From Chloroflexota bacterium (GTDB lineage: Bacteria > Chloroflexota > Anaerolineae > Anaerolineales > Villigracilaceae): a stretch of DNA of 64,000 nucleotides. The position numbers and the translations under genes were made by a program. This document shows, piece by piece, positions 4,364 through 21,556 of this stretch; the first letter of the stretch is position 1; the number at the start of each line of letters is the position of its first letter. The notes beneath the pieces were generated by a model. It searched no databases and was not told the DNA's origin. It saw nothing but the letters and a program-made list of their open reading frames with translations. The DNA lies in contig JACRLC010000037.1 in assembly GCA_016235425.1 (NCBI GenBank), positions 1-64,000 of the forward strand. Reading direction: 5' to 3'.

Positions 4364-4446
4364 CGCGTGGAAACGGGGAATTGACAAAATCATCTCGTGA
4401 CTTTTATCTTCGTTCATCTCTGTTCATCATGGTTATAATCCCCCGC

Positions 4447-6501
4447 ATGGACTCATCCCTCACATCCTTCTTTAATCCTCGCGGCGTCGTTGTCATTGGC
4501 GCATCCACCTCACCCGAAAAATTAGGCTATGGCGTAGCGCGTAACCTCGTCCAAAGCGGATACGCGGGCGCGATCCACTTCGTCAGCCAGAAGCAGGGAC
4601 AGCTCTTCGAGCGTCCGCTGTACACGGACCTCGCGCAAGTCCCCGATCCGGTTGACCTTGCGATTCTCATCGTCCCGCCACAGGCCACGCCTGAAACCAT
4701 AAAAGCGTGTGGCACGCGCGGCATCCACGCGGCGATCATCGTTTCATCGGGATTTCGCGAAGCGGGCGCGGAAGGCGCGGCGCTGGAACGAGAATGCGTT
4801 GAGATTGGGCACGCGCAAGGCGTGCGGCTACTGGGGCCCAACTGCATCGGCACACTCGACACGCATCTTCCCCTCGACACGACCTTCCTGCAACCGCCCA
4901 TGCCCACGCGAGGCGGCATCGGTTTCATTTCCCATTCGGGCGCGTTCTGCGCGGCGATCATTGACTGGGCGCGCCGCCAGGGTTTCGGCTTTTCGCAGCT
5001 TGTCAGCCTCGGCAACCAGGCCGACGTCAACGAGACAGATATGCTTCCCATGCTCGCGGCGGATGTCCACACCCGCGTCATCGTGCTGTACATGGAAAGC
5101 GTTTCGGATGGCCGAAAATTTGTGGACGCGGCCCGCGCAGTGACGCGCGTCAAACCGGTGGTTGCGCTCAAAGTCGGTCGCTTCGAGTCTGGACAAAAAG
5201 CGGCCGCCTCGCATACAGGCGCATTGGCCGCCTCTGACATCGCCTTCGACGCGGCCTTCGAGAAAGCAGGCATCCTCCGCGCCGACTCCGCCGAGCAGAT
5301 GTTCGACTGGGCACGCGCGCTGGAGACTTGTCCACTGCCGCGCGGCAAACGAATTGGGATTTTGACAAACGCGGGCGGCCCCGGAGTCATCGCCGCCGAT
5401 TCACTCGAGACGAATGGCCTGCTTCTCGCCAAATTGAATGAGTCCACGCTGAAAGCTTTATCCGCCAACCTGCCCCCCGCCGCGTCCGTGCAAAACCCGG
5501 TGGATATGCTCGCCTCCGCGTCGCCGGAACAGTATGCAACTTGTTTGAAGTTATTGCTCGAAGATAAGGATGTGAATGGCGTGATGGTCATCCTCCCCCC
5601 GCCGCCAATGTTCAAAGCGGAGAATGCAGCCACCGCACTGATTCCGCTGATCCAAGATTCAGGCAAACCTGTGGTCATCGCACTTCTGGGTTCAACTCTC
5701 ATTGAGCAAGCGGCGCAAACTTTCCAACTTGCCAACGTTCAAACCTACCCTTTCCCCGAGCGAGCCGCGTCGGCATTATCTGCGTTGGTGAAACGAGCAG
5801 AATTCCTTGAAAGCAAGCAGACCCTAAAGGTCTTGGAGACCTTTAGGGTCTCGGAACCAAAAGACAAAAGTATTGAAGAACTCCTCGCGGCGTATGGCAT
5901 TCAAACCGCGCAGATCAAACTTGCACGTGATGAAAATGAAGCAGTTTCGATTGCAGAGGAACTTGGCTTTCCTTTTGTGATGAAAATCGCGTCACCGGAC
6001 ATTTTGCACAAGTCGGATGTCGGCGGCGTTCTTCTTGACATCAAGGATTCTCAGCAAGCCCGAAGTGGCTACACGCAGATGGTTTCGCGTGTCAAGTCCG
6101 TGATGCCGGGGGCGCGGATTGATGGCGTTCACCTCCAGCGGCAAATCCCGAATGGGCAGGAAGTGATCGTGGGCATGGTGCGCGATCCGCAGTTTGGGCC
6201 GTTGATGATGTTCGGTTCCGGCGGCGTTGAGGTGGAGGGACTCAAAGATGTGGCATTTGCCCTAGCACCGCTGAATCAGTTTGAGGTCCGGGAAATGATG
6301 CGAAAGACCTGGGCCGGGAGGAAGTTAAAAGGCTTTCGCAACATCCCTGCCGTTGATCAGGATTCTGTCGTCGATGTCTTAATCAAATTAGCGCGGCTGG
6401 CGGTTGAGAATGAGTCCATCGAGGAGATCGAAATCAACCCCCTGCGCGTACTGGAGGCCGGGGCGGTTGCCATAGATGTGCGAATTAAGTATGGGGTATA
6501 A
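4447..6501 (+). CDS. ADP-forming acyl-CoA (acetate-CoA type) synthetase
   Basis: A single-chain enzyme that interconverts an acyl-CoA, ADP and phosphate with the acid, CoA and ATP, typically yielding ATP in fermentation or amino-acid breakdown. I start at the ATG at 4447 because MDSSLTSFFNPRGVVVIGAS is the usual family start; upstream codons add a non-conserved stretch. Order: CoA-binding Rossmann domain (residues 1-130), ligase domain with ISHSGAF and the SHTGALA segment bearing the phospho-histidine (about 255), then an ATP-grasp domain (from about 480) with PFVMKIASPDILHKSDVGG and GPLMMFGSGGVEVE. About 684 residues is normal for the fused form. A 31-bp palindrome lies in frame in the linker before the ATP-grasp domain (5820-5850), adding about 10 non-conserved residues. 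The substrate acid cannot be told from sequence. Confidence 0.9.
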   Translation: MDSSLTSFFNPRGVVVIGASTSPEKLGYGVARNLVQSGYAGAIHFVSQKQGQLFERPLYTDLAQVPDPVDLAILIVPPQATPETIKACGTRGIHAAIIVSSGFREAGAEGAALERECVEIGHAQGVRLLGPNCIGTLDTHLPLDTTFLQPPMPTRGGIGFISHSGAFCAAIIDWARRQGFGFSQLVSLGNQADVNETDMLPMLAADVHTRVIVLYMESVSDGRKFVDAARAVTRVKPVVALKVGRFESGQKAAASHTGALAASDIAFDAAFEKAGILRADSAEQMFDWARALETCPLPRGKRIGILTNAGGPGVIAADSLETNGLLLAKLNESTLKALSANLPPAASVQNPVDMLASASPEQYATCLKLLLEDKDVNGVMVILPPPPMFKAENAATALIPLIQDSGKPVVIALLGSTLIEQAAQTFQLANVQTYPFPERAASALSALVKRAEFLESKQTLKVLETFRVSEPKDKSIEELLAAYGIQTAQIKLARDENEAVSIAEELGFPFVMKIASPDILHKSDVGGVLLDIKDSQQARSGYTQMVSRVKSVMPGARIDGVHLQRQIPNGQEVIVGMVRDPQFGPLMMFGSGGVEVEGLKDVAFALAPLNQFEVREMMRKTWAGRKLKGFRNIPAVDQDSVVDVLIKLARLAVENESIEEIEINPLRVLEAGAVAIDVRIKYGV
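5820..5850. repeat. In-frame palindrome inside the acyl-CoA synthetase gene
   Basis: GACCCTAAAGGTCT and its exact reverse complement are separated by TGG. The element is read in frame as part of KQTLKVLETFRVSEP, between the ligase and ATP-grasp domains. The same hairpin type (GACCCTGAAGGTCT, loop TTG) serves as the rplS terminator at 57183-57213, so this is a dispersed repeat lodged in a coding linker. Confidence 0.85.
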
Positions 6502-6535: not shown

Positions 6536-6781
6536 ATGACGATCCCCGAAACGATTTTGAAGGAATTGGAAAACTATACCGGCACCGACCAGGTCCGCAA
6601 GGACTTGAATATTAATCTCTTCGAGGAGAGACTGCTCGATTCACTCGCGACCGTTGAGCTGATCATTGCCCTTTCAGAGGCTTTCAGCATGGACATTTCT
6701 CCCGGCGAAATTGACCGCGAGCTTTGGGCGACGCCGCAAAAGATCATTGACTATTTTGAAGAACGAGCAAACGCCGGATGA
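6536..6781 (+). CDS. dltC: D-alanyl carrier protein DltC
   Basis: An 81-residue acyl-carrier-like protein. The phosphopantetheine attachment serine is Ser36 in ERLLDSLATVEL, matching the DSL/DSM motif and position in known DltC proteins. DltC carries D-alanine as a thioester from DltA to the membrane O-acyltransferase DltB. It is the first gene of a five-gene dlt cluster and its stop overlaps the start of dltD as ATGA, so the two are translationally coupled. GAGAG seven bases before the ATG is the likely ribosome-binding site. By itself the protein could be another carrier protein, but the neighbours settle it. Confidence 0.9.
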   Translation: MTIPETILKELENYTGTDQVRKDLNINLFEERLLDSLATVELIIALSEAFSMDISPGEIDRELWATPQKIIDYFEERANAG

Positions 6782-7998
6782 AACAAGCGCCTCATCTAGC
6801 CGCGTCTGTGGCTGCGGTTTTTGTCTCCATCATGGCGGGGGTCGCATTTACAATTTACGCAAATCTATTCGAAGAAAAATACGTCCATTCGGTTGCCGCG
6901 CTGGAGCATATTGAGATCATCAAAGGGAGCGCCATCCAGCGCGTAGCTTTGCAACAGGATGACCTTTTGGTGGTGTACGGGGGTTCCGAGATCGTTTTGC
7001 TCCAAACCAGATACCAGGCTTATCGTTTTTTCAGCACCTACCCCACCGGCTTCAACGTTTTTGACGTAGCCAACAAAGGCGCATCGGCTTTGACAATGGC
7101 GCAGAAAGTTGCGGCGCTCGGCGAGGACGTGCGCGGGAAAAAAGTGGTCATTTCGATCACGCCCGCGATTGTGACCATGGCCCCGCTGGGCGAAGTGAAT
7201 CCCGATCATTACAACGCGAACTTCTCACAACTGCACGCGCTCGAACTGGCATTCAGCCCGCACTTGAGCATGGAAACCAAACGACTCGCCGCAAAGCGGA
7301 TGCTGGATTTCCCGGCCATATTGGAAGATAACCTCCTGCTTAAATTCACGCTTGAAAACCTGGCGGGAGATTCAACTACAAATCGGATTCTTTATTATCT
7401 GGCCTGGCCGCTCGGCAGATTGCAAATCGCGTTCGTTACCCTGCAAGACCATTACGCCACCACGGCGTTCATTCGCTCGCACTCTTCGGAGGAATTGAGA
7501 GTAACCCGCCAGCCGGAAGAAATTGACTGGTCTGCGCTTGCGGCAAAGGCGGAAGTGGAACAAATCGAGAACACGGACAGCAATTCCTACGGCGTGGACA
7601 ATCTCAAGTGGAAGCAGTTGGAAGAGTTATTCGTCACTCCCATTGCGGCCGGTTCAAAAGATGCGGAATTCATCGAAGACGTGAAGAACGCAAGAGAATG
7701 GGGAGACCTTGAGATCACATTGCGCGTTTTGCACGAACTCGGCGCGGATGCGGTGATTTTCAGCAACCCGATGAACGTCCAACTGTGGGAAAAGCTGGGC
7801 GTTTCTGAAGAGGCGCAAAACGCATACTATGAAAAAATCAACTCGATGGTTTCCCCGTACAACATCCCGGTTGTAGATTACAGGGAATATGGCACGGACA
7901 AATACTTCGACATGGATTTGGCCGCGCACACGAGCCGCAAAGGATGGGTTTATGTCAATCAAACGCTTGATAAATTTTTTCACGGCGTTCTACGCTAA
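6778..7998 (+). CDS. dltD: DltD, D-alanine transfer protein
   Basis: A 406-residue protein with one N-terminal membrane segment (about residues 7-27) and an extracytoplasmic SGNH-like domain. Ser70 lies in LLVVYGGSEIVLL, the place of the GSSEL motif of DltD. The C-terminal MDLAAHTSRKGWVYVNQ carries the conserved Asp and His region. DltD is thought to receive the D-alanyl group from DltB and pass it to the wall glycopolymer outside the membrane. The middle segment FNVFDVANKGASALTMAQ matches the family layout. It overlaps dltC by 4 bases and dltX starts within its last 47 bases. The serine motif is slightly altered (GGSE rather than GSSE). Confidence 0.88.
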   Translation: MKQAPHLAASVAAVFVSIMAGVAFTIYANLFEEKYVHSVAALEHIEIIKGSAIQRVALQQDDLLVVYGGSEIVLLQTRYQAYRFFSTYPTGFNVFDVANKGASALTMAQKVAALGEDVRGKKVVISITPAIVTMAPLGEVNPDHYNANFSQLHALELAFSPHLSMETKRLAAKRMLDFPAILEDNLLLKFTLENLAGDSTTNRILYYLAWPLGRLQIAFVTLQDHYATTAFIRSHSSEELRVTRQPEEIDWSALAAKAEVEQIENTDSNSYGVDNLKWKQLEELFVTPIAAGSKDAEFIEDVKNAREWGDLEITLRVLHELGADAVIFSNPMNVQLWEKLGVSEEAQNAYYEKINSMVSPYNIPVVDYREYGTDKYFDMDLAAHTSRKGWVYVNQTLDKFFHGVLR

Positions 7999-8116
7999 TC
8001 CCCTCGGACGGATTTTTATTCTGACGGTCTATTACCTGGCGATCATCGCCGGGTTGGTCTTCATGTACGGAAAAGGCGATTTCTCGACGCCGGATTTTGT
8101 TTATCAAGGATTCTGA
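7952..8116 (+). CDS. dltX: DltX, small membrane subunit of the D-alanylation complex
   Basis: A 54-residue protein with one membrane helix (IFILTVYYLAIIAGLVFMYG) and the C-terminal end DFVYQGF. DltX proteins are about 50 residues, have a single helix followed by a YG pair, and end in a FIYNEF-like motif that reaches outside and accepts D-alanine on its tyrosine. The helix-YG-FxYxxF arrangement is preserved here. The start at 7952 overlaps dltD by 47 bases in another frame; a TTG at 7967 would shorten the protein by five residues. dltA begins 4 bases after the stop. Confidence 0.85.
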   Translation: MSIKRLINFFTAFYANPLGRIFILTVYYLAIIAGLVFMYGKGDFSTPDFVYQGF

Positions 8117-8119
8117 TCC

Positions 8120-9589
8120 ATGGACATCATCGAACGCATAGATAATTGGGCGCAGGTTTACCCGGAGCGCGTCGCTCACGTGAGCGGCGGACAGAGACTC
8201 ACGTACAAAGAATTGAAGGCCCAATCCGACAAACTGGCGGGCTATCTTTCGCAGGCGCTCCCCAATGACGGCTCCCCCATCGTCATTTTGGGACACAAAC
8301 AGGTTGAAATGACCATCGGTTTCATCGGGTGCGCCAAAGCCGGGCATCCGTACGTCCCATTGGAAAGTTCCTTCCCGGAACAGCGGGTAAAAACGGTGGT
8401 GGAAACCGCGCAAGCGTCCTGGATCCTGACCGTTGAAGAGATACGGAAGATTCTGGAAACCACGGAAGAAAATCCAAAATTCGAGAACCGAAAACGGGAA
8501 ATGGAGGATGTGTGGTACATCATCTTCACGTCCGGCAGTACGGGCAATCCCAAAGGCGTGATGATCACACGCGCCAGCCTGGAAAATTTCCTCAACTGGA
8601 CTCTTGCTGAACACGAGATCACGGAAGCGGCAGTGACCATCATCGGGCAGGCTCCCTTCACGTTCGACGTGTCCATTTTGGATCTGTATTGCAGTCTCGT
8701 TCAGGCGGGAACGCTCGTCAGCGTGACGAAGGACGAGATCGCCAATCTCAAGGAATTATTCAAAACGCTCTCCAATTCAAACGGCACGATGTGGGTTTCA
8801 ACGCCGTCCTTTGCGCGGCTGTGCCTGATGGAGCCGTCGTTCAACGAAGGGATGATCCCCACGCTTGGCAGGTTCTGGCTGGCCGGGGAACCGCTCGCTC
8901 CCGAAATCGCCACGGAACTGCTCAAGCGTTTTCCAAAAGCACAATTGTGGAATGCCTACGGCCCCACCGAAGCGACCGTGGCAACCACCTCCGTTCAGAT
9001 CACGAAGGAAATCATCGCGAAATACAATCCCCTGCCCATTGGTTATCCCATGCCGGGAACCCAAATCCTGATCCACAACAAGGAAGGGAAACCTGTCGCG
9101 GCTGGGGAACGAGGCGAGATAATCATCAATGGCCCAAACGTCAGCATTGGCTACATCAACCGCCCCGATCTAACCGCCAAAGCATTCTTCGCAGTTGACG
9201 GACAGCGCGCCTATCACACCGGCGACTGGGGGCGCTGCCAGGATGGCATGGTCTTCTACGATGGCCGCATTGATTTCCAGATCAAATTGCACGGCTACCG
9301 GATCGAGATCGGCGACATCGAAGCAAACCTGCACGTCCTGCCGAATGTGCAGGATGCGGTCGTTGTGCCGGTGATGAAAGAGGAGCGCGCCGATCATCTC
9401 GTGGCGTTCGTAATTTTGAAAAACCGCACCGGCGCATCCGATTTTGAGATCATGCAGGAGTTGAAACGTCAGCTCGCGGAACGCGTGCCCGAATACATGG
9501 TGCCGCGCAAATTCGTATTCCCCGCCGAGTTCCCCATCACCACCAACGGAAAAGCAGACCGCCGCAAACTCGCCGAAACTCTTCAATGA
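8120..9589 (+). CDS. dltA: D-alanine--D-alanyl carrier protein ligase DltA
   Basis: A 489-residue adenylating enzyme. It activates D-alanine with ATP and loads it on the phosphopantetheine of DltC. Core motifs are in order: IIFTSGSTGNPKGVM (about 134-148), NAYGPTEATVA (about 279), YHTGDWGRC (about 371), KLHGYRIEIGDIE (about 392) and the C-terminal TTNGKADRRKL with its catalytic lysine. The length is close to that of known DltA proteins (about 500). The stop overlaps the start of dltB as ATGA. An amino-acid activating NRPS module is the alternative, but it has no condensation domain and sits among dltC, dltD, dltX and dltB. Confidence 0.92.
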   Translation: MDIIERIDNWAQVYPERVAHVSGGQRLTYKELKAQSDKLAGYLSQALPNDGSPIVILGHKQVEMTIGFIGCAKAGHPYVPLESSFPEQRVKTVVETAQASWILTVEEIRKILETTEENPKFENRKREMEDVWYIIFTSGSTGNPKGVMITRASLENFLNWTLAEHEITEAAVTIIGQAPFTFDVSILDLYCSLVQAGTLVSVTKDEIANLKELFKTLSNSNGTMWVSTPSFARLCLMEPSFNEGMIPTLGRFWLAGEPLAPEIATELLKRFPKAQLWNAYGPTEATVATTSVQITKEIIAKYNPLPIGYPMPGTQILIHNKEGKPVAAGERGEIIINGPNVSIGYINRPDLTAKAFFAVDGQRAYHTGDWGRCQDGMVFYDGRIDFQIKLHGYRIEIGDIEANLHVLPNVQDAVVVPVMKEERADHLVAFVILKNRTGASDFEIMQELKRQLAERVPEYMVPRKFVFPAEFPITTNGKADRRKLAETLQ

Positions 9590-10761
9590 TCCCCTACACC
9601 GATTTTCTTTATTTTGGCGTTTCGCTTTACGCGCTCCTGCCCGCATTGATCGCAGGGCTGTTCAAGCGCGCGTGGAAATTCTGGCTGGTCATTGCGACCG
9701 TTTTCATGCTGGCAGTCCAATATCCGCACGCGCGCGAGATGTTTGGGGCGGCGATCCCGGAGCTGGCGCTTCTCGCGGGATACGCGGTCATTCAATGGAT
9801 CATTTCTGTTCTGTTCCTGTCCATTCGGCGGAAGGGGAAAAATAGGGCCGCGTATTATTTAGCGATCTTCTTCAATCTGCTTCCTCTGCTGGCCGCGAAA
9901 CTCATCCCGCTCTTCCAGCCGGAATATCCCCTGCTGTTTTTGGGACTGTCGTACATCACCTTCCGCACGCTGGATGTGACACTTGGAATCCAGGATGGCT
10001 TAATTAAGGAGGTTAAACCGCTTCCCTACCTGACCTTTTTGCTGTTCTTCCCAACGATCTCTTCCGGCCCCATTGACCGCTACCGCCGCTTCAACGAAGA
10101 CTGGAACCGCGAACGCACGCGCGAACAATTCGTGCAGGATTTGGACGGCGGCATCCATCGCATCTTTACGGGATTTTTGTACAAGTTCATCCTTGCCGCG
10201 CTGATCAAACAATACTGGCTCGATCCGGTCACAGGGACCACGGACTTCCTGAGTACGCTTTCGTACATGTACGCGTACTTCTTCTATCTATTCTTCGACT
10301 TTGCAGGCTACAGCGCGTTTGCCGTCGGCTTCAGTTACATCCTGGGAATCCATACACCCGAAAATTTCAACCGCCCGTTCCTTTCGAGGGACATCCGCGA
10401 TTATTGGAATCGCTGGCACATGAGCCTGTCGTTCTGGTTTCGCGACAATATCTACAATCGCTTCACGTTTGCCGCGTTGAAAGGCAAATGGTTCAAAAAC
10501 AGCCAGACCGCTTCGTATCTCGGATATCTCATCACGATGGGACTAATGGGCGTCTGGCACGGGACGGCATGGCATTTTCTCATTTACGGCCTGTATCACG
10601 GATTCCTGTTGGTTGCCACGAACTGGTTCGACCGCAGATACAAGGGCAACCGCCTGCTCAACGACAAAGGGTTAATTTGGCAGGCGCTTTCGATCCTGAT
10701 CACATTCCATCTCGTGGCCTTTGGCCTGTTGCTATTCTCAGGAAGATTAGTCCAAATTTAG
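9586..10761 (+). CDS. dltB: DltB, membrane-bound O-acyltransferase
   Basis: A 391-residue MBOAT protein with about ten hydrophobic segments. The MBOAT signatures are FFPTISSGPIDRYRRF (about 147-162), FFDFAGYSAFAVG (about 233), RDYWNRWHMSLSFWFRD (about 273) and MGVWHGTAWHFL with the invariant catalytic histidine (about 323). DltB moves D-alanine from DltC across the membrane through a central tunnel, with DltX and DltD acting outside. It overlaps dltA by 4 bases. As the last gene of the cluster it is followed by about 240 bases with no recognised gene. Confidence 0.92.
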   Translation: MIPYTDFLYFGVSLYALLPALIAGLFKRAWKFWLVIATVFMLAVQYPHAREMFGAAIPELALLAGYAVIQWIISVLFLSIRRKGKNRAAYYLAIFFNLLPLLAAKLIPLFQPEYPLLFLGLSYITFRTLDVTLGIQDGLIKEVKPLPYLTFLLFFPTISSGPIDRYRRFNEDWNRERTREQFVQDLDGGIHRIFTGFLYKFILAALIKQYWLDPVTGTTDFLSTLSYMYAYFFYLFFDFAGYSAFAVGFSYILGIHTPENFNRPFLSRDIRDYWNRWHMSLSFWFRDNIYNRFTFAALKGKWFKNSQTASYLGYLITMGLMGVWHGTAWHFLIYGLYHGFLLVATNWFDRRYKGNRLLNDKGLIWQALSILITFHLVAFGLLLFSGRLVQI

Positions 10762-11003: not shown

Positions 11004-12107
11004 ATGAGCGCTTTGATGAGATCGTTATTTAGCGGGGGTGAGACCGCGTATCGTGAGACGTATTGGAAGGAAGACAGGGAACAGGCAAGACTCGTAATTT
11101 TTATCGTCGCTATTATGGTTGTAATGCTTGCCATCGTTGATTATCAGTTCCTGGGTAATAGCGATGAATTTTTAATGTTCTTGGCAGGCCGAATGACATT
11201 TCTGGGGGTTTCAATTGCAGTCTACTCGGGCATAAAGCAACATATCAAAATCAAACAAAACGACTACGCCATCCTCTTTTGGGCCTGCTCGCTGGCAGTG
11301 CTCACGCTTGCCATTGACGCCACCCGCCCAAATAATTTCTCCGGGAACATAGTCCTGCACGGTATCATGGTCCTGGGCAGTTATTCTCTCATACCCAACC
11401 GGTTATTGTTTAAGATCATACCTGCCCTGGCCTTTACGATCTTCGACATGATCATCCTGTTTTTCTACAAAACAGAGATACCCCCTCCCACCCTGGCGAT
11501 CGGCATCATTACACTAATTACCGTCAACGTTATGGGGATGGCAACTTCGTTGCGCTTGGATGCCTACCGCCGCAACCAGCATGAAGCCAAGATATTCGAA
11601 ACCCGCAACCGCATGCAACTGGTGGAACTTGCCACCACAGACAGCCTGACCGGTGTTTACAACCGGCGGCATTTTATCGGGCTGGGCGAAATCGAATTCG
11701 ACCGCTACAAACGCTTCGGACATATTTTCTCCTTCGTCGTTATGGACATCGATAAATTCAAATCGATCAATGACACCTACGGCCACCCATTTGGCGACGC
11801 CGTCCTGCAAAGTTTTTGTACTGTTTTGAGCAGTGAAAAACGGTCGGTGGATATCATCGGGAGGCTGGGAGGCGATGAGTTTGGCATCATTTTGCCGGAA
11901 ACCTCCGCCCGCGACGCCGCCAAAGTCATCCAGCGTATTAAACGGTTTTGCAGACAACTGGGCTTGAATCCCCTCGATGAAAAATTCCGCATTACGATCA
12001 GCGTGGGCCTGACGGCGGCGCGGCCCAGCGACCAATCGATGGAAGATCTTTACCACCGCGCCGATAAAGGCCTGTATCAAAACAGGCTCAGGAACAGGAA
12101 ACTGTAA
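11004..12107 (+). CDS. Membrane diguanylate cyclase (GGDEF)
   Basis: A 367-residue protein. Residues about 30-185 hold five or six hydrophobic segments, followed by a short coiled linker and a GGDEF domain (about 205-365). The catalytic GGDEF is intact in GRLGGDEFGIILPE. An inhibitory-site motif RSVD lies exactly five residues before it, so product inhibition by cyclic di-GMP is expected. SLTGVYNRRHF and MDIDKFKSINDTYGH complete the GTP/metal site. It makes cyclic di-GMP from two GTP. AAGGAATAAGAAG precedes the ATG. An HD-GYP phosphodiesterase at 35964 could oppose it. The signal sensed by the membrane part is unknown. Confidence 0.9.
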   Translation: MSALMRSLFSGGETAYRETYWKEDREQARLVIFIVAIMVVMLAIVDYQFLGNSDEFLMFLAGRMTFLGVSIAVYSGIKQHIKIKQNDYAILFWACSLAVLTLAIDATRPNNFSGNIVLHGIMVLGSYSLIPNRLLFKIIPALAFTIFDMIILFFYKTEIPPPTLAIGIITLITVNVMGMATSLRLDAYRRNQHEAKIFETRNRMQLVELATTDSLTGVYNRRHFIGLGEIEFDRYKRFGHIFSFVVMDIDKFKSINDTYGHPFGDAVLQSFCTVLSSEKRSVDIIGRLGGDEFGIILPETSARDAAKVIQRIKRFCRQLGLNPLDEKFRITISVGLTAARPSDQSMEDLYHRADKGLYQNRLRNRKL

Positions 12108-12151
12108 ACCTTCCAAATGACGGGCTTTTTTCCTGGGGTACAATTGCGCCC

Positions 12152-12973
12152 ATGATTCAGGTATCTTCCCTTACCTACTACCCAATCAAAGCCTGCCGGG
12201 GATTTGACATCAACTCATCCCTCATCCAGCGCATGGGACTCGAACACGACCGCCGCATGATGGTGGTCACGCCTGAGGGCGAATTCCTCACGCAACGCGA
12301 GTATCCAAAGCTGGCGCTCATCACCCCCGCGTTGACCGATGGCGTGGTCACACTTTCCGCGCCCGAATGGGAGGCGGTCACTTTTCCTGTTCTGAAAACG
12401 GGCGAGACGATCCCTGTAGACGTCTGGCGAAGCAAGGGCGTGCAAGCCGTGGATCAGGGTGAGGCCGCCGCGCAATGGCTCTCCACCTGGATTGGCGATC
12501 CCGTGCGGCTCGTTCATATTGCAGGTGGATTCAAGCGAAAACTAAATCCCGATTACGCGGTCAATGCAGACGACCACACCGGATTTGCCGACGGCTACCC
12601 GATCCTGATCGCCTCCGAAGAATCGCTTCAGGACTTAAACTCGCGGCTTGATTCCAAAGTCCCGATGAATCGCTTCCGCCCGAACATTGTTGTGAAAGGC
12701 TGTGAACCGTTCGCAGAAGACACGTGGAAGCGCATCAAAATCGGCGGCGTGGAGTTGGCAATCGTCAAGCCGTGTGCGCGTTGTGTGGTGACGACGATTG
12801 ACAAGGAAACTCTCGTTCAAAGCAAGGAGCCGCTAAAAACGCTGAACACTTTTCGCAAGCAGGCTCGCGCTGAGCAGGGTCGAAGCGTTGGCGGAGCCAT
12901 GTTTGGGCAAAACGTCATCCCATTAAACGAGGGCAGGATCGAGGCCGGTATGAGCGTGCAGGTCGTCGAGTAA
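12152..12973 (+). CDS. MOSC-domain protein with N-terminal beta-barrel domain
   Basis: A 273-residue protein of the molybdenum cofactor sulfurase C-terminal (MOSC) superfamily. It begins SSLTYYPIKACRGFD, the usual start of the N-terminal MOSC beta-barrel domain, and ends with the MOSC core. The conserved cysteine lies in KPCARCVVTTID (about 209-220), where MOSC proteins of the mARC/YcbX type hold the molybdenum ligand. NRFRPNIVVKG is another family signature. Such proteins bind molybdenum cofactor and reduce N-hydroxylated compounds or transfer sulfur; the exact substrate is not readable. Cofactor genes moaCDE lie in the same window (59695-60987). Confidence 0.87.
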   Translation: MIQVSSLTYYPIKACRGFDINSSLIQRMGLEHDRRMMVVTPEGEFLTQREYPKLALITPALTDGVVTLSAPEWEAVTFPVLKTGETIPVDVWRSKGVQAVDQGEAAAQWLSTWIGDPVRLVHIAGGFKRKLNPDYAVNADDHTGFADGYPILIASEESLQDLNSRLDSKVPMNRFRPNIVVKGCEPFAEDTWKRIKIGGVELAIVKPCARCVVTTIDKETLVQSKEPLKTLNTFRKQARAEQGRSVGGAMFGQNVIPLNEGRIEAGMSVQVVE

Positions 12974-12989
12974 AGGTAAAATCGCAGAC

Positions 12990-13766
12990 ATGTTTTCACG
13001 CAGGGATTTCCTCAAATTAAGCGGCGCGGCACTGCTTGCCGCGGCATTTCCAAACTTTGAAAGCGCGCAGGCAGAGGGCCCCTCCGCCCCACCGACGATC
13101 TGGCAGGGAAGCAAACGGCATCGTTACGTGGCGCTCACCTACGATGACTGTAATTGGCTTTATTTGATGCAGGACTTGGAAAAACTTCTGGCGGAATACC
13201 CGGACATTCGCATCACACTTTTCCCCACCGGCGAAAACCTGCTCTCAAAAGAGTCGCAGGATCATGGAATCTGGAATCGGTTTTACGATCAGGGACACGA
13301 GATCGGCTATCACTCGTACTACCACGTTGACCCCGGCGTCATGTCTTTGGATGAAGTAGTAAACGACTTCGATATGTGGAACGAAGCGCTTGTGAAAGTG
13401 ATGGGATTTCAACCGAAGGTCCGCTTTGCGCGGCCTGTCGGTGGAAACTATGTGAGCCGTTCGTTCATCGACATGTGCGCGTTGCGCGGATTGGTTCTCA
13501 CCATGTGGTCGGGCGCGGGCGGCGGGGAAACTGCCGGGGTGATGAACAATACTTTCAACCCCATCCGCAACGGCGACATCGTCCTGTTCCACATCCGCAG
13601 GAACGACATCGAAACGACCCGCGCAGTCTTTCCCTATTTGAAAGAGCAGGGAGTTCCGTCGGTCACGCTCTCGAAACTTTATGATGATTTGCTGATCGAG
13701 CAAAACCAAAGCGAAGGCTGTGATGTTGGCGCGGGGAGTCCGCTCACGAGGACTTGTATTGAATGA
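12990..13766 (+). CDS. Tat-exported polysaccharide deacetylase family protein
   Basis: A 258-residue protein starting MFSRRDFLKLSGAALLAAAF, a twin-arginine signal, with likely cleavage near residue 28. The mature part has the NodB-type deacetylase core: LTYDDCNWLY with the metal/catalytic Asp pair (about 49-50) and GHEIGYHSYYH with the metal-binding histidines (about 103-113). Such enzymes remove acetyl groups from N-acetylated sugars in peptidoglycan or polysaccharides outside the membrane. Tat export implies the enzyme folds with its metal in the cytoplasm. The gene is convergent with the desulfhydrase gene. The family also holds divergent members without known substrate. Confidence 0.82.
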   Translation: MFSRRDFLKLSGAALLAAAFPNFESAQAEGPSAPPTIWQGSKRHRYVALTYDDCNWLYLMQDLEKLLAEYPDIRITLFPTGENLLSKESQDHGIWNRFYDQGHEIGYHSYYHVDPGVMSLDEVVNDFDMWNEALVKVMGFQPKVRFARPVGGNYVSRSFIDMCALRGLVLTMWSGAGGGETAGVMNNTFNPIRNGDIVLFHIRRNDIETTRAVFPYLKEQGVPSVTLSKLYDDLLIEQNQSEGCDVGAGSPLTRTCIE

Positions 13767-14837: not shown

Positions 14838-16010
14838 TTACGCACTTAGGTTTTGCTTTGTCTTTTCCTTCCCTCGCGACCGCATCACATCCAGCACGCG
14901 CGGGATGATCTCCGAGTACATCCGATACCACAGTGAATTGGGCGCGTAGTCCCATGCGCCGAGGGTGCGGACAACCTGCCCGCCAAGTCCCTCTTTGAAG
15001 CGATACACCCCCCACATGCCGTCACTTTCATTGAATTCATCCGGCGCACCCCACAAGTCATAGACTTTACAGCCGTATTCCTTGGCACGCTTCATGGCTT
15101 CCCATTGCAAAAGATAAGTGGGCATCTTCTCGCGGTGAGCTTCGCGCGACATGCCATAGATGTAATATGCCCGTCTTCCGAAATAAAAAACAAAGATCGC
15201 GGCAACGGGATCGCCATCCACTTCGGCGATCAACGGCTCGCAAGCCGGCAGGTTTGCAGGCTGAAGGGCTGATACTTGCGAACCGTCCAGCCTGCCAGCA
15301 TTCAAACGCATAAAAGTTTCCCAAACCGTCAGGTAATATTCCTCGTCACGAATGACGAATCCATCGCGAATGGACGTTTCCGCGTACATTTTGTAGAGCA
15401 TGGGCAGGTCGGCCAGTGTGCCCGCGCGCACGATCACGCCCTTTTTCCCGGCCAGACGGACGTTGTAACGCGTCTTCTGTTTCATGCGCGCCAGCATCTC
15501 ATCGTGAGGCACAGTCAAATCTATTTCGACCGTATTCTTGAATTGGATTTGATCGGGTGAATATTTCCAATACCTGCCGGTCAGGTCTGATGTAACAAGA
15601 TTTCCATCGTTGTTCATCAAATCACTCTCAGAGTCCGGGATGCCCGTGCCAAGGACCACGTCCGGGTCGCATTTCAGGAAGATCGCGCCCTGCTTCTTCG
15701 CGAAGGATTGCAGGTCGTCCAGCACGCGTTTTCTCAGGGACGCGTCGCCCCAGTCCATGAGCGGGCCTTTGGGAATGTATAAAATGCTCAAGCGTGCCGC
15801 GAACCCGCGGTTGATGATCTTTTTTTTGAGTGCCATCGCGGCCGCGACCGGTTCATGCCCCGCATATTCGGATTCCCACACAAAAGGCATTGGCTCCCAG
15901 CCATACTTCGCCTTCACCTGTGACCATTCCCACGTCTGAAGCAGGTGAGGGTTGGGTAGTTGGGAAATAATTTCATCCCACTCAGAGGCCACGCCCGTAA
16001 ATTTTTTCAT
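14838..16010 (-). CDS. FemAB/FemX-like peptidyltransferase, second of a pair
   Basis: A FemAB-like GNAT-fold aminoacyltransferase of 390 residues from the ATG at 16010; upstream codons belong to the neighbour. Family marks are LLQTWEWSQVKAKYGWEP at the N-terminus and EMLARMKQKTRYNVRLAGKK in the middle, with MPTYLLQWEAMKRAKEYGC and YDLWGAPDEF near the end. These enzymes add amino acids from aminoacyl-tRNA to the peptide of lipid II, making wall cross-bridges. It overlaps the paralog upstream (ATGA). Relative to that paralog, about 25 extra residues (15240-15310) carry repetitive sequence in frame. The stop at 14838 falls in a low-complexity ATTGGCAATTACC stretch. Confidence 0.82.
   Translation of the reverse strand: MKKFTGVASEWDEIISQLPNPHLLQTWEWSQVKAKYGWEPMPFVWESEYAGHEPVAAAMALKKKIINRGFAARLSILYIPKGPLMDWGDASLRKRVLDDLQSFAKKQGAIFLKCDPDVVLGTGIPDSESDLMNNDGNLVTSDLTGRYWKYSPDQIQFKNTVEIDLTVPHDEMLARMKQKTRYNVRLAGKKGVIVRAGTLADLPMLYKMYAETSIRDGFVIRDEEYYLTVWETFMRLNAGRLDGSQVSALQPANLPACEPLIAEVDGDPVAAIFVFYFGRRAYYIYGMSREAHREKMPTYLLQWEAMKRAKEYGCKVYDLWGAPDEFNESDGMWGVYRFKEGLGGQVVRTLGAWDYAPNSLWYRMYSEIIPRVLDVMRSRGKEKTKQNLSA
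15240..15310. repeat. In-frame repetitive insert in the second FemAB-like gene
   Basis: Repetitive words (GGCAGGTTTGCAGG, CAGCCTGCCAGC) encode RLNAGRLDGSQVSALQPAN and a few more residues. The paralog at 16007 lacks them: it reads ...VYDLLHPKEMCEILVAEY where this one reads ...VWETFM, insert, EPLIAEVDG. The insert keeps the frame. Confidence 0.55.
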
Positions 16011-17014
16011 TGACCAGCCTCCAGTCCTGCCATGCGCCAAAGATAAAGTTTATACAACAACGGATTGTACACTCGATCCAATGCCTGCGCGGCGCGTTTG
16101 ACTTCACCGCCGAAGCCGCGTTTGAAACGATAGACGCCCCACAGGCCGTCATGCCTGGTCTCGAAATCGGCCTCGAGAGCCGCTTCATCTTCATCCGGCA
16201 CACCCCAGAGATCGTATTCTTCGCACCCGCGCGCCCTTGCCCACTTCATCGCTTCCCATTGCAGGAGATAAGTGGGCATACGATTACGCTCCTCATTCGT
16301 CGACGCGCCATAAAGATAATAGGATTGCGTCCCGCTTCGGGCGATCATCAACGAAGCCAATGGCTGGCCCTCATATTCAGCCACAAGGATTTCGCACATT
16401 TCTTTCGGATGAAGCAGGTCATACACACGTTGATAATATTCCAGCGAATGGATGCCGAACTCATCGCGTCCGCCCGTGACCAGCATCATTCGGTGAAACG
16501 CAGGGAGATCGTCCCAGGCGCGCACGGTCACGCCTTTTTTCTCGGCGAGGCGCATGTTGTAGCGGCATTTTTGTTTCATGCGCGCAAGGATTTCCTCTTC
16601 CGTACCGCGAAGATCAATGATGATAGTGCGGGGAGGTTGGATGTTGTAGGGAGAAGTCCGTAATTTGTGATTTGTGATTTGTAAATTGCTAACGGTTGAA
16701 TCGTTCCAAAGGTCAGGTTCGATTTTCAGGAAGATGGCGCGGTGCTTTTTGCAAACGGAATCCACCTCTCCCCAAAACCGATCGCCGGCCACTGGTAACT
16801 GTTTACTGCTCACCGGTTTGGGAAGATATCCCACCGTGAACCCCAGCGGCAATTTACGAAATAAGATCTGCGCGCCAAATTCGCCTTGAATCAGGCGGGC
16901 AGTCCGCCACCCAAAGGCGGACTTCAACTCGCCCCACTCGCCTGTTTGCAACAAATGAGCATGGGGATGATTTTGTAAAAATTGATTCCAATCAGAAAGG
17001 GAAACTTCAGGCAT
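16007..17014 (-). CDS. FemAB/FemX-like peptidyltransferase, first of a pair
   Basis: 335 residues from the ATG at 17014; the longer frame upstream runs through repetitive sequence. It shares with its neighbour the family marks HLLQTGEWGELKSAFGW, EEEILARMKQKCRYNMRLAE, MPTYLLQWEAMKWARARGC and YDLWGVPDEDE. The predicted role is addition of cross-bridge amino acids to lipid II at the cytoplasmic membrane face. The two paralogs overlap by 4 bases and probably act in sequence, as FemX, FemA and FemB do in staphylococci. A repetitive stretch (16661-16689) is read in frame as NLQITNHKL and breaks an otherwise conserved region. Which residue is added cannot be told. Confidence 0.82.
   Translation of the reverse strand: MPEVSLSDWNQFLQNHPHAHLLQTGEWGELKSAFGWRTARLIQGEFGAQILFRKLPLGFTVGYLPKPVSSKQLPVAGDRFWGEVDSVCKKHRAIFLKIEPDLWNDSTVSNLQITNHKLRTSPYNIQPPRTIIIDLRGTEEEILARMKQKCRYNMRLAEKKGVTVRAWDDLPAFHRMMLVTGGRDEFGIHSLEYYQRVYDLLHPKEMCEILVAEYEGQPLASLMIARSGTQSYYLYGASTNEERNRMPTYLLQWEAMKWARARGCEEYDLWGVPDEDEAALEADFETRHDGLWGVYRFKRGFGGEVKRAAQALDRVYNPLLYKLYLWRMAGLEAGQ
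16661..16689. repeat. In-frame TTTGTGATTTGT repeat in the first FemAB-like gene
   Basis: The tandem words TTTGTGATTTGTGATTTGTA are read on the minus strand in frame as part of NLQITNHKLR, just before the conserved IIIDLRGTEEEIL. The paralog has an unrelated sequence of different length here. Confidence 0.55.
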
Positions 17015-17170
17015 TAACCATTCTCCAGGCGGCAACTTCGCCACCGGGGAGGCGGCGAGAGCGAAAAGGATTTGCGTTTCGACCCTTCGATAAGGTTTCC
17101 CTGGCCCGAACACCAGGACGGGCAACGAACTCAACCCATCGCCTCAGGGCGGTGCTGCACAACGCGAATA

Positions 17171-17243
17171 AAACTACTCAACTACCAAACTACCCAACTC
17201 TTCAACTACCCAACTTCAAAACGAAACAACCATCAAACCAACG
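17171..17243. repeat. Tandem ACTACCAAACTACCCAACT repeat at the capD-like 3' end
   Basis: Degenerate 7-8 base units of the type ACTACCA/ACTACCC/CAACT run through the gap before the FemAB-like pair. The stop codon of the capD-like gene (17233-17235) lies within the last unit. The same repeat type occurs at 25336-25380 and inside the second glycine aptamer (39771-39850). Confidence 0.7.
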
Positions 17244-19119
17244 AAGTCATATCCGGCGGAGGGGTCGAGCGGACAGATGCCGAGGGGATGGATTCGTCGA
17301 GAACGCGGATCAGGCTATCGGTCTCGGCTTGATGCGAGAGGTGGGCAAGCTGCTCAACGGCGCGGGAGAGTTTGTCGCTGTCCACGTGTTCCTCCTCTGC
17401 GGCGCGATAAATCTCGGGGTGCGCGGTCGGCTGGAATTGCATCCCTTCCTCCCACAAGTCCTCGCTGAGTTTTTCGCCGGGACGAATGCCGGTAAACGTG
17501 ATCTCAATATCGCGGCCGGGTTCGAGGCCGGAAAGGCGGATCAAATCTTCGGCAAGGTCAAGGATGCGCACCTGTTGCCCCATGTTGAGCAAAAAGACTT
17601 CGCCGCCCTGCCCCATCGAAGCGGCCTGCAAGACGAGATGCACGGCCTCAGGAATGATCATGAAATAGCGGCGCATGTCGGGATGCGTGACCGTGACCGG
17701 CCCGCCGCGCGCAATTTGATTTTTGAACCGAGGAACCACGGAGCCGCGGCTGCCAAGCACATTCCCAAAGCGAACCACCGAATAAGCGCGCCCGTTGCGA
17801 TGCGCGGCGTCGAGGACGATCATCTCGGCCAGACGTTTCGTCGCGCCCATGACATTGACCGGGCGAATGGCTTTATCCGTTGAAATGAGGACGAGTCTTT
17901 CCACCCCATGCCTGTTCGCCGCTTCGACGATGTTGCGCGTGCCGAGGACATTGTTTGTAACCGCCTCTTCGACATTCGCTTCCATCAAAGGGACGTGCTT
18001 GTGCGCCGCAGCATGGAAAAGGACTTCGGGCCGATGCTGCTTGAACACTTCCTGAATGCGGTTCGGATCGCGCACATCCGCAATGACGGGATGGATCGGC
18101 AGAGACGGAAAATTCTCACTCAACTCAAGCAGGGCTTCGAAGATGCTGTTTTCGCCGTGACCAAGCAACACCAATTCGGCCGGACTCCAGCGCGCCACCT
18201 GCCGCGAGATTTCCCGTCCAATGGAGCCGCCCGCGCCGGTGATGAGCACGCGCTTGCCCGAAAGCGTTGACCCCACGAGACGGTCATCAATCTTGATCGG
18301 ATCGCGGCGCAGGAGGTCGGTGATGTCCACTTCGCGCAAACGGTTGACGCTGACCTTGCCGCCGATCAACTCGAAGATGCCGGGGATGGTACGCGAGGGA
18401 ATCCCCTTGAGCCTGCACACGTCATTGACCAGCCGCACGAGCCGCCCCGGCGCAGATGGAATGGCGATAATCACTTCATCTGTTTGATGATTGTCGAGCA
18501 CATCGGCCAAATCGCGGACTCTGCCAATCACGGGCACACCGTAGATTTCCTGTCTTTGTTTGGCCGGGTCGTCATCGAGAAAACCGATGGGGACGAAATT
18601 AATCTGCGACGATTTCTGCAACTCACGCGCCACGAGCGCGCCCGCGTCGCCTGCACCGATGATGAGCACGCGGCGGCTCTTGCCGTTACGCGGCATGGCA
18701 GATTGCTCCGCGAGAATCCGCAGGGTAAAGCGTGAACCGCCGATGAGCACGAGCGAAAGAAGCCAGTCAATGCCGAGGGCCGAGCGCGGCATCCCTGGGA
18801 CAATGTGCCCAAAGGTGATAATCGCCAGCATCACACCGGAGGTCAGCACCGAAGCCGCAGAGACCGCGACAGTGATCAAACGCAATTCGTTGGTGCTGGC
18901 ATACACCCACAGGCGGCGGTAAAGTCCAAAGAAATAATAAACGGGAATCTTAACCAGCGCGGCCACCGCGCACATGATCAGCGCGGCGGGGAAATAGAAA
19001 GGCAATTCGCCAACGTCCAGGCGCAAGGCAAAACTGCCCAGCACCGAAATGACGACGAGGGCAATGTCGCCGATCAAGACGAAGCGATTGCGAATATGAA
19101 AACGAGGGCGGGATTCCAT
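17233..19119 (-). CDS. Membrane-bound nucleotide-sugar 4,6-dehydratase/epimerase (CapD/WbpM type)
   Basis: 628 residues from the ATG at 19119, chosen because it begins MESRPRFHIRNRFVLIGDI next to the first membrane segment; the longer frame overlaps the upstream gene. Four hydrophobic segments (about 15-120) are followed by a Rossmann domain (GAGDAGALVAREL, about 147) and a second SDR domain starting ITGAGGSIGREIS (about 288). TDKAIRPVNVMGATKR holds the catalytic residues of the inverting/retaining 4,6-dehydratase group, with Met in place of the usual Tyr, as in PglF and WbpM. The enzyme makes a 4-keto-6-deoxy UDP-sugar for surface glycans. The C-terminal residues and stop run into the ACTACC repeat. 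Confidence 0.9.
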   Translation of the reverse strand: MESRPRFHIRNRFVLIGDIALVVISVLGSFALRLDVGELPFYFPAALIMCAVAALVKIPVYYFFGLYRRLWVYASTNELRLITVAVSAASVLTSGVMLAIITFGHIVPGMPRSALGIDWLLSLVLIGGSRFTLRILAEQSAMPRNGKSRRVLIIGAGDAGALVARELQKSSQINFVPIGFLDDDPAKQRQEIYGVPVIGRVRDLADVLDNHQTDEVIIAIPSAPGRLVRLVNDVCRLKGIPSRTIPGIFELIGGKVSVNRLREVDITDLLRRDPIKIDDRLVGSTLSGKRVLITGAGGSIGREISRQVARWSPAELVLLGHGENSIFEALLELSENFPSLPIHPVIADVRDPNRIQEVFKQHRPEVLFHAAAHKHVPLMEANVEEAVTNNVLGTRNIVEAANRHGVERLVLISTDKAIRPVNVMGATKRLAEMIVLDAAHRNGRAYSVVRFGNVLGSRGSVVPRFKNQIARGGPVTVTHPDMRRYFMIIPEAVHLVLQAASMGQGGEVFLLNMGQQVRILDLAEDLIRLSGLEPGRDIEITFTGIRPGEKLSEDLWEEGMQFQPTAHPEIYRAAEEEHVDSDKLSRAVEQLAHLSHQAETDSLIRVLDESIPSASVRSTPPPDMTSLV

Positions 19120-19140
19120 GAGGGAAGCGATTCGTGTTCC

Positions 19141-19165
19141 GTGTTTACTTGTCTGCTTATTTACC
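19141..19165. repeat. AAACAAGCAGACAAG-type repeat at the epimerase 3' end
   Basis: On the minus strand this reads GGTAAATAAGCAGACAAG and on to TAAACA, the same words as at 13771-13811. The epimerase TAA stop (19157-19159) is part of it. Confidence 0.45.
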
Positions 19166-20092
19166 TGCCACGCGCATCCATTCAACAGCCTCTTTCAACC
19201 CATCCTCGAGCGAGACTTGCGCGCGGAAGCCCATCACATCCGCGGCCTTTTGCGGGGAGCCAATGGAGCGGTAAATATCCCCGGCGCGCGGCGCGGCAAA
19301 GACGGGCGGCTGGAAATTTGGAAAGAGGTCGAAGAGCACTTCGAGCAGGTCGAGCAGGCGCGTTTCGACGCCGGTACAAATATTGAAGACCTGGCCCGGC
19401 GCATTCGGATGCTGGGCGGCGACGAGATTGGCCTGCACCACGTCGCGAATGTTGATCAGGTCGCGCGTTTGGCCGCCATCGCCGAAGATGGTGACGGGCT
19501 GTCCATCCAGCAAGCGCCGAATGAAGATTGGCACCGCCGCGGCGTACTGGGAATCCGGCCGCTGGCGCGGGCCGTAAACGTTGAAATAGCGCAAGGCAGC
19601 CACGTCCAGGCCAAAGGAGTTCGTGTACAACTGGCCGTAGATTTCGTCCACACGTTTGGATGCGGCATACGGCGACAGCGGGCGCAGGGGTGTCTCTTCA
19701 TTCAGGGGCATTGCGGTCGAATCGCCATAGACTGCCGCGCTGGTCGCAAAGACGACGCGCCGCACACCCGCCCTGCGCGCCGATTCAAACAACGACGAAG
19801 TCCCCGTCACATTGACATCGAAACAATCCTGCGGCTCGTCCATGGATTGGGGTACGGAGACAAAGGCCGCTTCGTGGAAAATGATCTCGACGCCGCGCAC
19901 AGCCTCGGTCACGCGGGAGGCGTCGCGCAGGTCGCCCTCGATGACTTCGAGATTGCCGTCGAGTCCCTGTAAATTTTCGCGTTTGCCTGTCGAGAAGTTA
20001 TCCAACACGCGGACATGCACGCCCTGCCCAAGCAGGGTACGAACGATGTGCGAACCAATAAACCCGGCGCCGCCTGTGACGAGGTATTTCAT
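19157..20092 (-). CDS. NAD-dependent sugar epimerase (UDP-glucose 4-epimerase type)
   Basis: A 311-residue extended SDR enzyme. VTGGAGFIGSHIV (residues 4-16) binds NAD; TSAAVYGDST (about 116) and YAASKRVDEIYG (about 141) give the Ser and the Tyr-Lys of the active site. It interconverts nucleotide sugars such as UDP-glucose and UDP-galactose; the true substrate could be an acetylated or uronic form. It lies between the glycosylphosphotransferase and the CapD-like dehydratase, all on the minus strand with short gaps, as one surface-polysaccharide transcription unit. Confidence 0.88.
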   Translation of the reverse strand: MKYLVTGGAGFIGSHIVRTLLGQGVHVRVLDNFSTGKRENLQGLDGNLEVIEGDLRDASRVTEAVRGVEIIFHEAAFVSVPQSMDEPQDCFDVNVTGTSSLFESARRAGVRRVVFATSAAVYGDSTAMPLNEETPLRPLSPYAASKRVDEIYGQLYTNSFGLDVAALRYFNVYGPRQRPDSQYAAAVPIFIRRLLDGQPVTIFGDGGQTRDLINIRDVVQANLVAAQHPNAPGQVFNICTGVETRLLDLLEVLFDLFPNFQPPVFAAPRAGDIYRSIGSPQKAADVMGFRAQVSLEDGLKEAVEWMRVAGK

Positions 20093-21556
20093 TTATCTGC
20101 CGCTCCTTCTGAGCACCGTGCCAATTGTGCGGAGGACAATCGAAAAGTCCATGCCGACTGTACGGTGCTTGATGTAATAAAGATCATACTCGAGTTTAAC
20201 GGCCGTTTCCGTAATGCTGGCTACATAACCATAATTGATCTGCGCCCAACCGGTGAGACCCGGCTTTACGAGCAGGCGCGCCCGGTAAAACGGGATTTGC
20301 TTCTGATATTCGGCCACCAGCTCCGGCTGTTCGGCGCGCGGACCGACGAGACTCATCTCGCCGCGCAGGACGCTCCAAAATTGCGGCATTTCATCCAAAT
20401 GAGTGCGTCTCAGAAAATTTCCCACCCGCGTGACGCGCGGGTCATTCTCGATGGTTGGCCGCGCGTCTCCATTCACTCCGGCACCCTGTTTCATCGTGCG
20501 AAATTTATAGATCCTGAAAACCGTTCCGCCCTTTCCAAGCCGCGTTTGGGAATAAAAAATCGGCAGGCCGCTGTCAATGAACGTGGCAATTGCCGCGAGA
20601 GGAAGCATGATCAGAAAAGCAACCAATCCGAACAGCCCGCCCAAAATATCCATGAGACGTTTGAATAACTCGTAGATCGCGCTGACCCGCACCTGGTCCA
20701 CGAACGAGCGGATGACCCAGTCCGATTCAAGGTGGTGGACCGGCACGCGGCTGGTCATTTCCTCGTACAGGATCGGCATGCGCGTCACTTCGATGCCGTG
20801 TTCCTGAATATCAAGGATGGTCTGAAAGGTTGCTCCTTTGATTTCGCCGTTGATGGCGATTACCAGGTCCGAAACGTGGTAATTTTCCACAATATCGAAC
20901 AAGTTGTCGCTCGTTCCGAGCACCGGCAGGCCGTAAAAAACCTTATACCTTTTGCGCGGGTCATCGTCAATGAAGCCGACGAAGATGAACGGCGGCGGGG
21001 TGAGGCGGTGATACACATCTGCAAGCGTGTGACCCGCCTTGCCCGCCCCCACCACCAGCACGCGGCGCATGAGGCCTGATGAAGTGTAGATTCTGATGTA
21101 GGCGGCGCGCCAGCCCAGGGTCAGGAAAGAGGCGATGAACAGGAACGCGCCCACTCCGATACGGGGCAAATCGTTTGGGTCCTGGCTGATCGTGAATACG
21201 AGCGAATATCCCAATAATCCAACCACCGCGGCGATGGCAATGCCGCGCAGGGTCCGCCTCCAATTGGCGGCGACGTGCGGATCGTACAGTTCGATCATCA
21301 ATAACAGCCAGATCAGCGGGAGCAGATAAAACCAGCCCGGCACTCTTGCAAGAAAAGCGCCATCCCATTGAAGTTCACGGATGGCACGCTCCATCGAGAT
21401 CCCGCCTGTCGATACCCGAACATAGAGTGTCCAACGATACCAGGCATAGATCGCGCCAAGCACCGACACAACGGAGGTGATCAAATCACCGAGCAGTAAA
21501 ATCCCCCGCTGTTCACTCGGACGTAAACGTATTGAAGGACGAGAAATATCAGCCAT
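20093..21556 (-). CDS. Polyprenyl glycosylphosphotransferase (exopolysaccharide priming enzyme)
   Basis: 487 residues from the ATG at 21556 (MADISRPSIRLRPSEQRG); the longer frame overlaps the upstream gene. The N-terminal half has four or five membrane segments and a CoA-binding-like fold (VLVVGAGKAGHTLADVYHRL). The C-terminal bacterial sugar transferase domain starts FKRLMDILGGLFGLV and has GTVFRIYKFRTMKQGAG, RTHLDEMPQFWSVLRGEMSL and KPGLTGWAQINYGY. It moves a sugar-1-phosphate from UDP to undecaprenyl phosphate, the first step of capsule, O-glycan or exopolysaccharide assembly. It is immediately followed by the epimerase gene. Confidence 0.92.
   Translation of the reverse strand: MADISRPSIRLRPSEQRGILLLGDLITSVVSVLGAIYAWYRWTLYVRVSTGGISMERAIRELQWDGAFLARVPGWFYLLPLIWLLLMIELYDPHVAANWRRTLRGIAIAAVVGLLGYSLVFTISQDPNDLPRIGVGAFLFIASFLTLGWRAAYIRIYTSSGLMRRVLVVGAGKAGHTLADVYHRLTPPPFIFVGFIDDDPRKRYKVFYGLPVLGTSDNLFDIVENYHVSDLVIAINGEIKGATFQTILDIQEHGIEVTRMPILYEEMTSRVPVHHLESDWVIRSFVDQVRVSAIYELFKRLMDILGGLFGLVAFLIMLPLAAIATFIDSGLPIFYSQTRLGKGGTVFRIYKFRTMKQGAGVNGDARPTIENDPRVTRVGNFLRRTHLDEMPQFWSVLRGEMSLVGPRAEQPELVAEYQKQIPFYRARLLVKPGLTGWAQINYGYVASITETAVKLEYDLYYIKHRTVGMDFSIVLRTIGTVLRRSGR

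Follow-up and report, generated by a model that had tools for sequence, protein, structure and literature searches.

Introduction

Esterification by Dlt proteins is known as the D-alanylation of teichoic acids in Firmicutes. The best described of these systems, dltXABCD of Bacillus, Staphylococcus and Listeria, is built from the same five protein families, with the same catalytic residues and the same FxYxxF motif, as the locus considered here (mechanism: PMC12148441), and in a survey of 2017, 805 of the 809 species with dltX were Firmicutes (PMC5541007). The dltDABC operon of Clostridioides difficile, for which D-alanine esters have been demonstrated experimentally, has a rotated gene order and acts on what is described as a diacylglycerol N-acetylglucosamine polymer instead of poly(glycerol phosphate); dltX is not mentioned in the text of that paper (PMC10642750). 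Two further systems share only parts of the pathway. AlmE of Vibrio cholerae, which activates glycine for lipopolysaccharide modification, is a DltA-like enzyme in which the equivalents of L198 and C269 tune substrate choice (PMC11253843), and PatA/PatB combine an MBOAT protein and an SGNH enzyme with an acyl-Tyr shuttle (PMC12148441).

The window, by which we mean the whole stretch of 64,000 nucleotides of Chloroflexota DNA analysed here, carries a dlt locus that departs from each of these. Compared with Firmicutes dltXABCD, its order is C-D-X-A-B instead of X-A-B-C-D, the D-alanine pocket residues of its DltA are replaced, its DltD loop reads DxxxH instead of DxxH, and the genome is without the LtaS/TagF acceptor genes. 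It resembles C. difficile in being rotated; it has a dltX gene, and it is known from genes alone. Where AlmE retains Leu and Cys at the L198 and C269 sites, the window DltA has Val and Ala, and the downstream transfer is of the MBOAT/DltX/DltD type. The MBOAT, SGNH and acyl-Tyr arrangement is like that of PatA/PatB, which, in contrast, draw on acetyl-CoA and have the shuttle motif as part of the MBOAT protein, whereas the window encodes DltX as a protein of its own alongside a carrier protein.

We consider it somewhat better than an even chance (roughly 0.55) that the locus encodes a Dlt-type envelope aminoacylation machine, with a remodelled DltA of changed or relaxed amino-acid choice and an acceptor other than teichoic acid. 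A natural DltA with a rebuilt D-alanine pocket, in a phylum of poorly known envelope chemistry, raises the testable questions of whether the DltC-DltB-DltX-DltD relay can carry other amino acids and which anionic polymer is modified.

A complete operon with intact catalytic residues

The dlt genes and their surroundings in the window are as follows.

4381–6501, forward strand: acyl-CoA synthetase (NDP-forming type; Pfam/NCBIfam), left neighbour, part of the family core locus and outside dlt
6536–6781, forward strand: dltC, aminoacyl carrier protein, phosphopantetheine site Ser36 (LLDSL)
6778–7998, forward strand: dltD, SGNH-type transferase, nucleophile Ser70 (GGSE)
7952–8116, forward strand: dltX, membrane microprotein of 54 aa, C-terminus FVYQGF
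8120–9589, forward strand: dltA, adenylating enzyme with remodelled amino-acid pocket
9586–10761, forward strand: dltB, MBOAT acyltransferase, His278 (WNRWHMS) and His325 (GVWHG)
11004–13766, forward strand: diguanylate cyclase-like protein, MOSC protein and polysaccharide deacetylase, right neighbours
14838–22559, reverse strand: envelope cluster with two FemAB proteins, CapD-type epimerase/dehydratase, NAD epimerase, sugar-1-phosphate transferase and GT2 (Pfam)

The preliminary description had read a complete C-D-X-A-B operon at 6536–10761, and open reading frames, coordinates and family cut-offs all agree with that reading. Curated cut-offs were passed by all five Dlt proteins of the window: DltC scored 75.1 bits with NF003464 (cut-off 68) and 66.3 with TIGR01688 (52.35), DltD 176.3 with TIGR04092 (150) and 178.6 with PF04914, DltX 28.2 with PF12459 (25), DltA 571.8 with TIGR01734 (559.85) and DltB 457.5 with TIGR04091 (375). 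The best relatives among solved structures were DltB, DltD, DltC and DltA chains, each for its own protein; DltC aligns with the D-alanyl carrier protein 1dv5, DltD with 6o93, and DltB with the solved DltB structures 6bug and 8jem. DltX had no relative among solved structures; its C-terminus matches the FxYxxF shuttle motif, and the protein is kept in relatives.

The catalytic residues of the Dlt pathway are all present, namely the DltC serine, the DltB histidine pair, the DltX tyrosine, the Ser/Asp/His set of DltD and the DltA core adenylation motifs with their lysine. The key residues named earlier (DltC Ser36, DltD Ser70, the YQGF end of DltX and the DltB histidine) were thus found where expected, and the earlier statement on DltA motifs holds for general catalysis and fails for the amino-acid pocket, which differs from a D-alanine pocket. 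The DxxxH catalytic loop near the C-terminus of the window DltD recurs in the Chloroflexota DltD proteins aligned, a one-residue insertion relative to Bacilli that extends across the phylum sample.

The genes are tightly packed. ATGA overlaps join dltC to dltD and dltA to dltB, dltX starts 47 nt inside the 3' end of dltD, as had been noticed before, with AAAGGA preceding its ATG, and dltX and dltA are separated by 3 nt. The acyl-CoA synthetase gene ends 34 nt before dltC. Promoter and terminator scans gave nothing above the level of shuffled sequence.

The amino-acid pocket of DltA is remodelled

At the positions that make DltA selective for D-alanine (Leu198, Met201, Cys269 and Thr293 in B. 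cereus numbering), the window protein has V184, L187, A255 and A279; together with L254, the replacements correspond to L198V, M201L, F268L, C269A and T293A. The same changes occur in L033 and in the second DltA of genome G269, and these three sequences form a clade with 100/100 support. When these were aligned with 17 further DltA proteins of Chloroflexota and Bacilli, 106 columns proved near-invariant among the 17, and the remodelled group differed uniformly at exactly five of the 106. Each of the five belongs to the amino-acid pocket or borders on it (hypergeometric P ~8e-6, a value to be taken as a guide only, since the pocket list, compiled from the literature and standard adenylation-domain code positions, was drawn up with the substitutions already in view). 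Four control trios of sequences gave 0, 1, 0 and 1 diagnostic columns, none of them in the pocket.

The remodelled pocket is found in three sequences only, every one from a draft assembly; sequencing error is very unlikely because three separate assemblies share the changes. The clade DltA genes are under constraint, as dN of 0.17–0.21, with dS saturated or about 2.1, indicates purifying selection. In G269 (L038:12923-17046), two dltA genes, one of the Cys type and one of the Ala type, flank one dltB in the same operon, so that a canonical and a remodelled DltA stand around a single dltC/X/B/D set. This tandem pair constitutes a built-in comparison.

What the pocket change may mean

In DltA the cavity for the D-methyl group is formed by Leu198, Met200/201 and Cys268/269 (PMC8972799; PMC11253843), and Cys269 of the B. 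cereus enzyme clashes with the methyl group of L-alanine (PMC4176424). Judging from the alignment, the smaller side chains that replace L198, C269 and T293 would be expected to leave more room on either side of the alpha carbon. Because the pocket of the clade is remodelled and is without the cysteine that excludes L-alanine, the window DltA most probably activates a different amino acid or discriminates less strictly between D and L forms. Canonical DltA of S. aureus accepts D-Ser as its second-best substrate (PMC12071552). That both DltA types are kept in one operon of G269 argues for different roles of the two.

Loss of the cysteine alone is no proof of a new substrate. B. cereus C269A still prefers D-alanine: with CoA, its k_cat/K_M values for D- and L-alanine are 32 and 1.9, compared with 363 and 0.18 for the unmodified enzyme, and the preference falls from ~2000-fold to 17-fold (PMC4176424). 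The operon might accordingly be an ordinary D-alanylation operon, in which the altered pocket still recognises D-alanine through different contacts and the polymer modified is a diverged one of the lipoteichoic type. The residual 17-fold preference speaks for this explanation, as do the passing of every Dlt family model, the presence of alanine racemase in the window genome, and the precedent of C. difficile, where the D-alanylated lipoteichoic acid is an N-acetylglucosamine polymer and the operon is likewise rotated (PMC10642750). It does not readily account for five concerted pocket changes restricted to one DltA clade, nor for the fact that G269 has kept both DltA types, one of which would be superfluous if their function were identical. 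We take this explanation seriously while regarding it as rather doubtful.

Returning to a DltA of changed or relaxed choice, a more specific version can be formulated, in which the pathway has been retooled for a residue other than D-alanine, either a larger D-residue or an L-residue, on a non-teichoic polymer, with the G269 set fed by two DltA specificities. We hold this version tentatively, at somewhat short of even odds.

These considerations bear also on what the system should be called. The preliminary description spoke of D-alanylation; the Dlt protein families stand, and the word D-alanine is in doubt, since the DltA pocket is altered. The five proteins belong to the Dlt families, and the D-alanine pocket, a defining feature of D-alanylation, is not there. 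For the latter reason we prefer the name Dlt-type aminoacylation operon.

By homology to the Firmicutes pathway, the relay would run from DltA through DltC, DltB and DltX to DltD. DltA would adenylate an amino acid and load it onto DltC, and DltB would move it from DltC to the C-terminal tyrosine of DltX, which in turn would pass it to Ser70 of DltD. DltD would then esterify an extracellular polymer, adding positive charge. Most probably this polymer is something other than a poly(alditol-phosphate) teichoic acid; examples would be a glycopolymer anchored by LCP proteins or a polymer carried on a glycolipid anchor.

The acceptor polymer

Judged by family models for LtaS, PF04464, TagD and TagA, the window genome (G000) has no classical teichoic genes, in line with the earlier remark that Chloroflexota are not known to make lipoteichoic acid. 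There was no LtaS match at E<=1e-8, and the LtaS cut-off of 970 was passed by none of 28 genomes, the best score being 262.7 bits in the dlt-positive G097 (another family). TagD (TIGR01518) and TagA (PF03808) had no match in G000. The TagF/TagB-type CDP-glycerol transferase model PF04464 gave one partial match of 29 bits (Pfam cut-off 22.1). We do not take it for TagF, as a BFO_1060-like glycosyltransferase model fits better (50.9 bits, below that model's own cut-off of 200) and similar weak matches occur in dlt-negative relatives. The PF00884 matches read in G000 are arylsulfatase- or EptA-like instead of LtaS.

Two membrane proteins of the window genome have EptA/CptA-like or sulfatase-like domains (L081:1083-2711 and L082:1432-2955), and by their domains they are possible envelope phosphotransferases. 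The place of a teichoic polymerase could be filled by a diverged one, such as the EptA-like protein in L081 or the sulfatase-like membrane protein in L082.

A non-classical acceptor is plausible, because LtaS, TagF-type, TagD and TagA genes are absent while LCP ligases are present. There are four of the latter in G000, and they occur in all 28 genomes checked, hence are not specific. In G145 (L044:1139-9991), an LCP wall-polymer ligase gene and a two-component system lie between dltB and dltD, and the position of this LCP gene inside a dlt locus hints at a wall-linked polymer as acceptor. For another member of the phylum, Litorilinea, teichoic and lipoteichoic genes are given by annotation in a genome announcement (PMC8793728).

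The preliminary description proposed the glycan made by the cluster at 17233–22559 as acceptor. This cluster encodes a sugar-1-phosphate transferase and a GT2 and is adjacent to dlt in the window, L033, G028 and G248, which speaks in favour of the proposal. It is also present, however, in the dlt-negative genomes read and is family-wide with or without dlt, being syntenic in the dlt-negative G255, G224, G297, G337 and G332; in the dlt-positive G269, cluster and dlt lie on different contigs, unlinked, and dlt genomes of other families are without such a context. We consequently think it improbable that this glycan is the acceptor. The FemAB pair that adjoins the cluster is present in 24 of the 25 family genomes checked.

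Gene order, distribution and history of the locus

The order X-A-B-C-D given earlier for Firmicutes agrees with annotated Firmicutes records, from Bacilli. The rotated order, taken before as a peculiarity of the window genome, turned out to be the usual arrangement in the Chloroflexota sample: C-D-X-A-B is found in eight Chloroflexota loci (window, L033, G269, G028, G248, G097, G177 and G161), D-C-X-A-B in three genomes (G091, G014 and G025), and C-X-A-B with a detached dltD in G193 and G145. In G025 the D-C-X and A-B parts are on different contigs, and in G248 the operon is divided between two contigs by a break inside dltB. X-A-B is constant throughout the Chloroflexota loci examined.

The operon is uncommon among Chloroflexota. 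Of 400 genomes sampled from the phylum, 12 have dltD and 9 have DltB above the cut-off, and a single-sequence DltB search of named genomes found distant MBOAT proteins and a single true relative, L033. The latter comes from an Anaerolineaceae assembly and, as the nearest relative with a name, points to Chloroflexota as the phylum of the window. Several dlt-positive genomes have additional dltD genes outside the operon (L083, L084, L085, L086-L088, L090), some of them in tandem and near two-component systems. We considered these loci as markers of an acceptor pathway and set them aside, as no such pathway showed among the neighbours looked at, which included permease-like membrane proteins and two-component systems as well as an Obg GTPase, FBPase and a WD40 protein. 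Outside the phylum, an orphan dltB on a Ligilactobacillus murinus plasmid (L118:3765-5173) adjoins a gene for a bactofencin A-type bacteriocin; the other dlt genes are absent from the stretch read.

Within the family, the operon is set in a core locus that varies somewhat from genome to genome and comprises genes for acyl-CoA synthetase, MOSC, polysaccharide deacetylase, a PLP enzyme, two FemAB proteins, CapD, an epimerase, sugar-1-phosphate transferase, GT2, a histidine kinase and a response regulator. In the window, G028 and G248, dlt comes right after the acyl-CoA synthetase, and in L033 and G269 MOSC comes after dlt; in G269, MOSC and the deacetylase share the contig with dlt, and FemAB is on another. 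In the dlt-negative G255, G160 and G297, the acyl-CoA synthetase gene directly adjoins MOSC or the deacetylase with no dlt between, and in G297 it overlaps its neighbour by ATGA.

The patchy distribution, 12 of 400 genomes, might suggest that dlt is a recent import from Firmicutes that has still to adapt to its host. Several observations make this very improbable: in a tree without Clostridia, Chloroflexota DltA and DltB group apart from those of Bacilli with 99–100 percent support, several genera have the operon at the same site and in the same order, DltB divergence resembles that of neighbouring core proteins, and the one-residue insertion in DltD is typical of the Chloroflexota sample. In a tree of five core proteins, the deep branches of which are weak, dlt-positive and dlt-negative genomes are intermixed, requiring a minimum of three changes. 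A single ancient gain followed by repeated losses would fit, two gains being a possibility. Within the family, dlt looks like a long-standing accessory module that occupies a single position in a conserved core locus; a minority of genomes have kept it and most have lost it.

Lastly, a few minor features of the surroundings may be mentioned. In G177 (L042:2912-10560), glycerate-2-kinase type genes (DUF4147/MOFRL) are found on both flanks of the dlt operon. The diguanylate cyclase-like gene of the window, at 11004–12107 between dltB and MOSC, is of the GGDEF type as identified from sequence only, and no such gene was seen at that place in the relatives examined. Upstream, a short TPR-like open reading frame at 2446–2700 is similar to the end of a much longer one in L033 and L039, and it may be a remnant.
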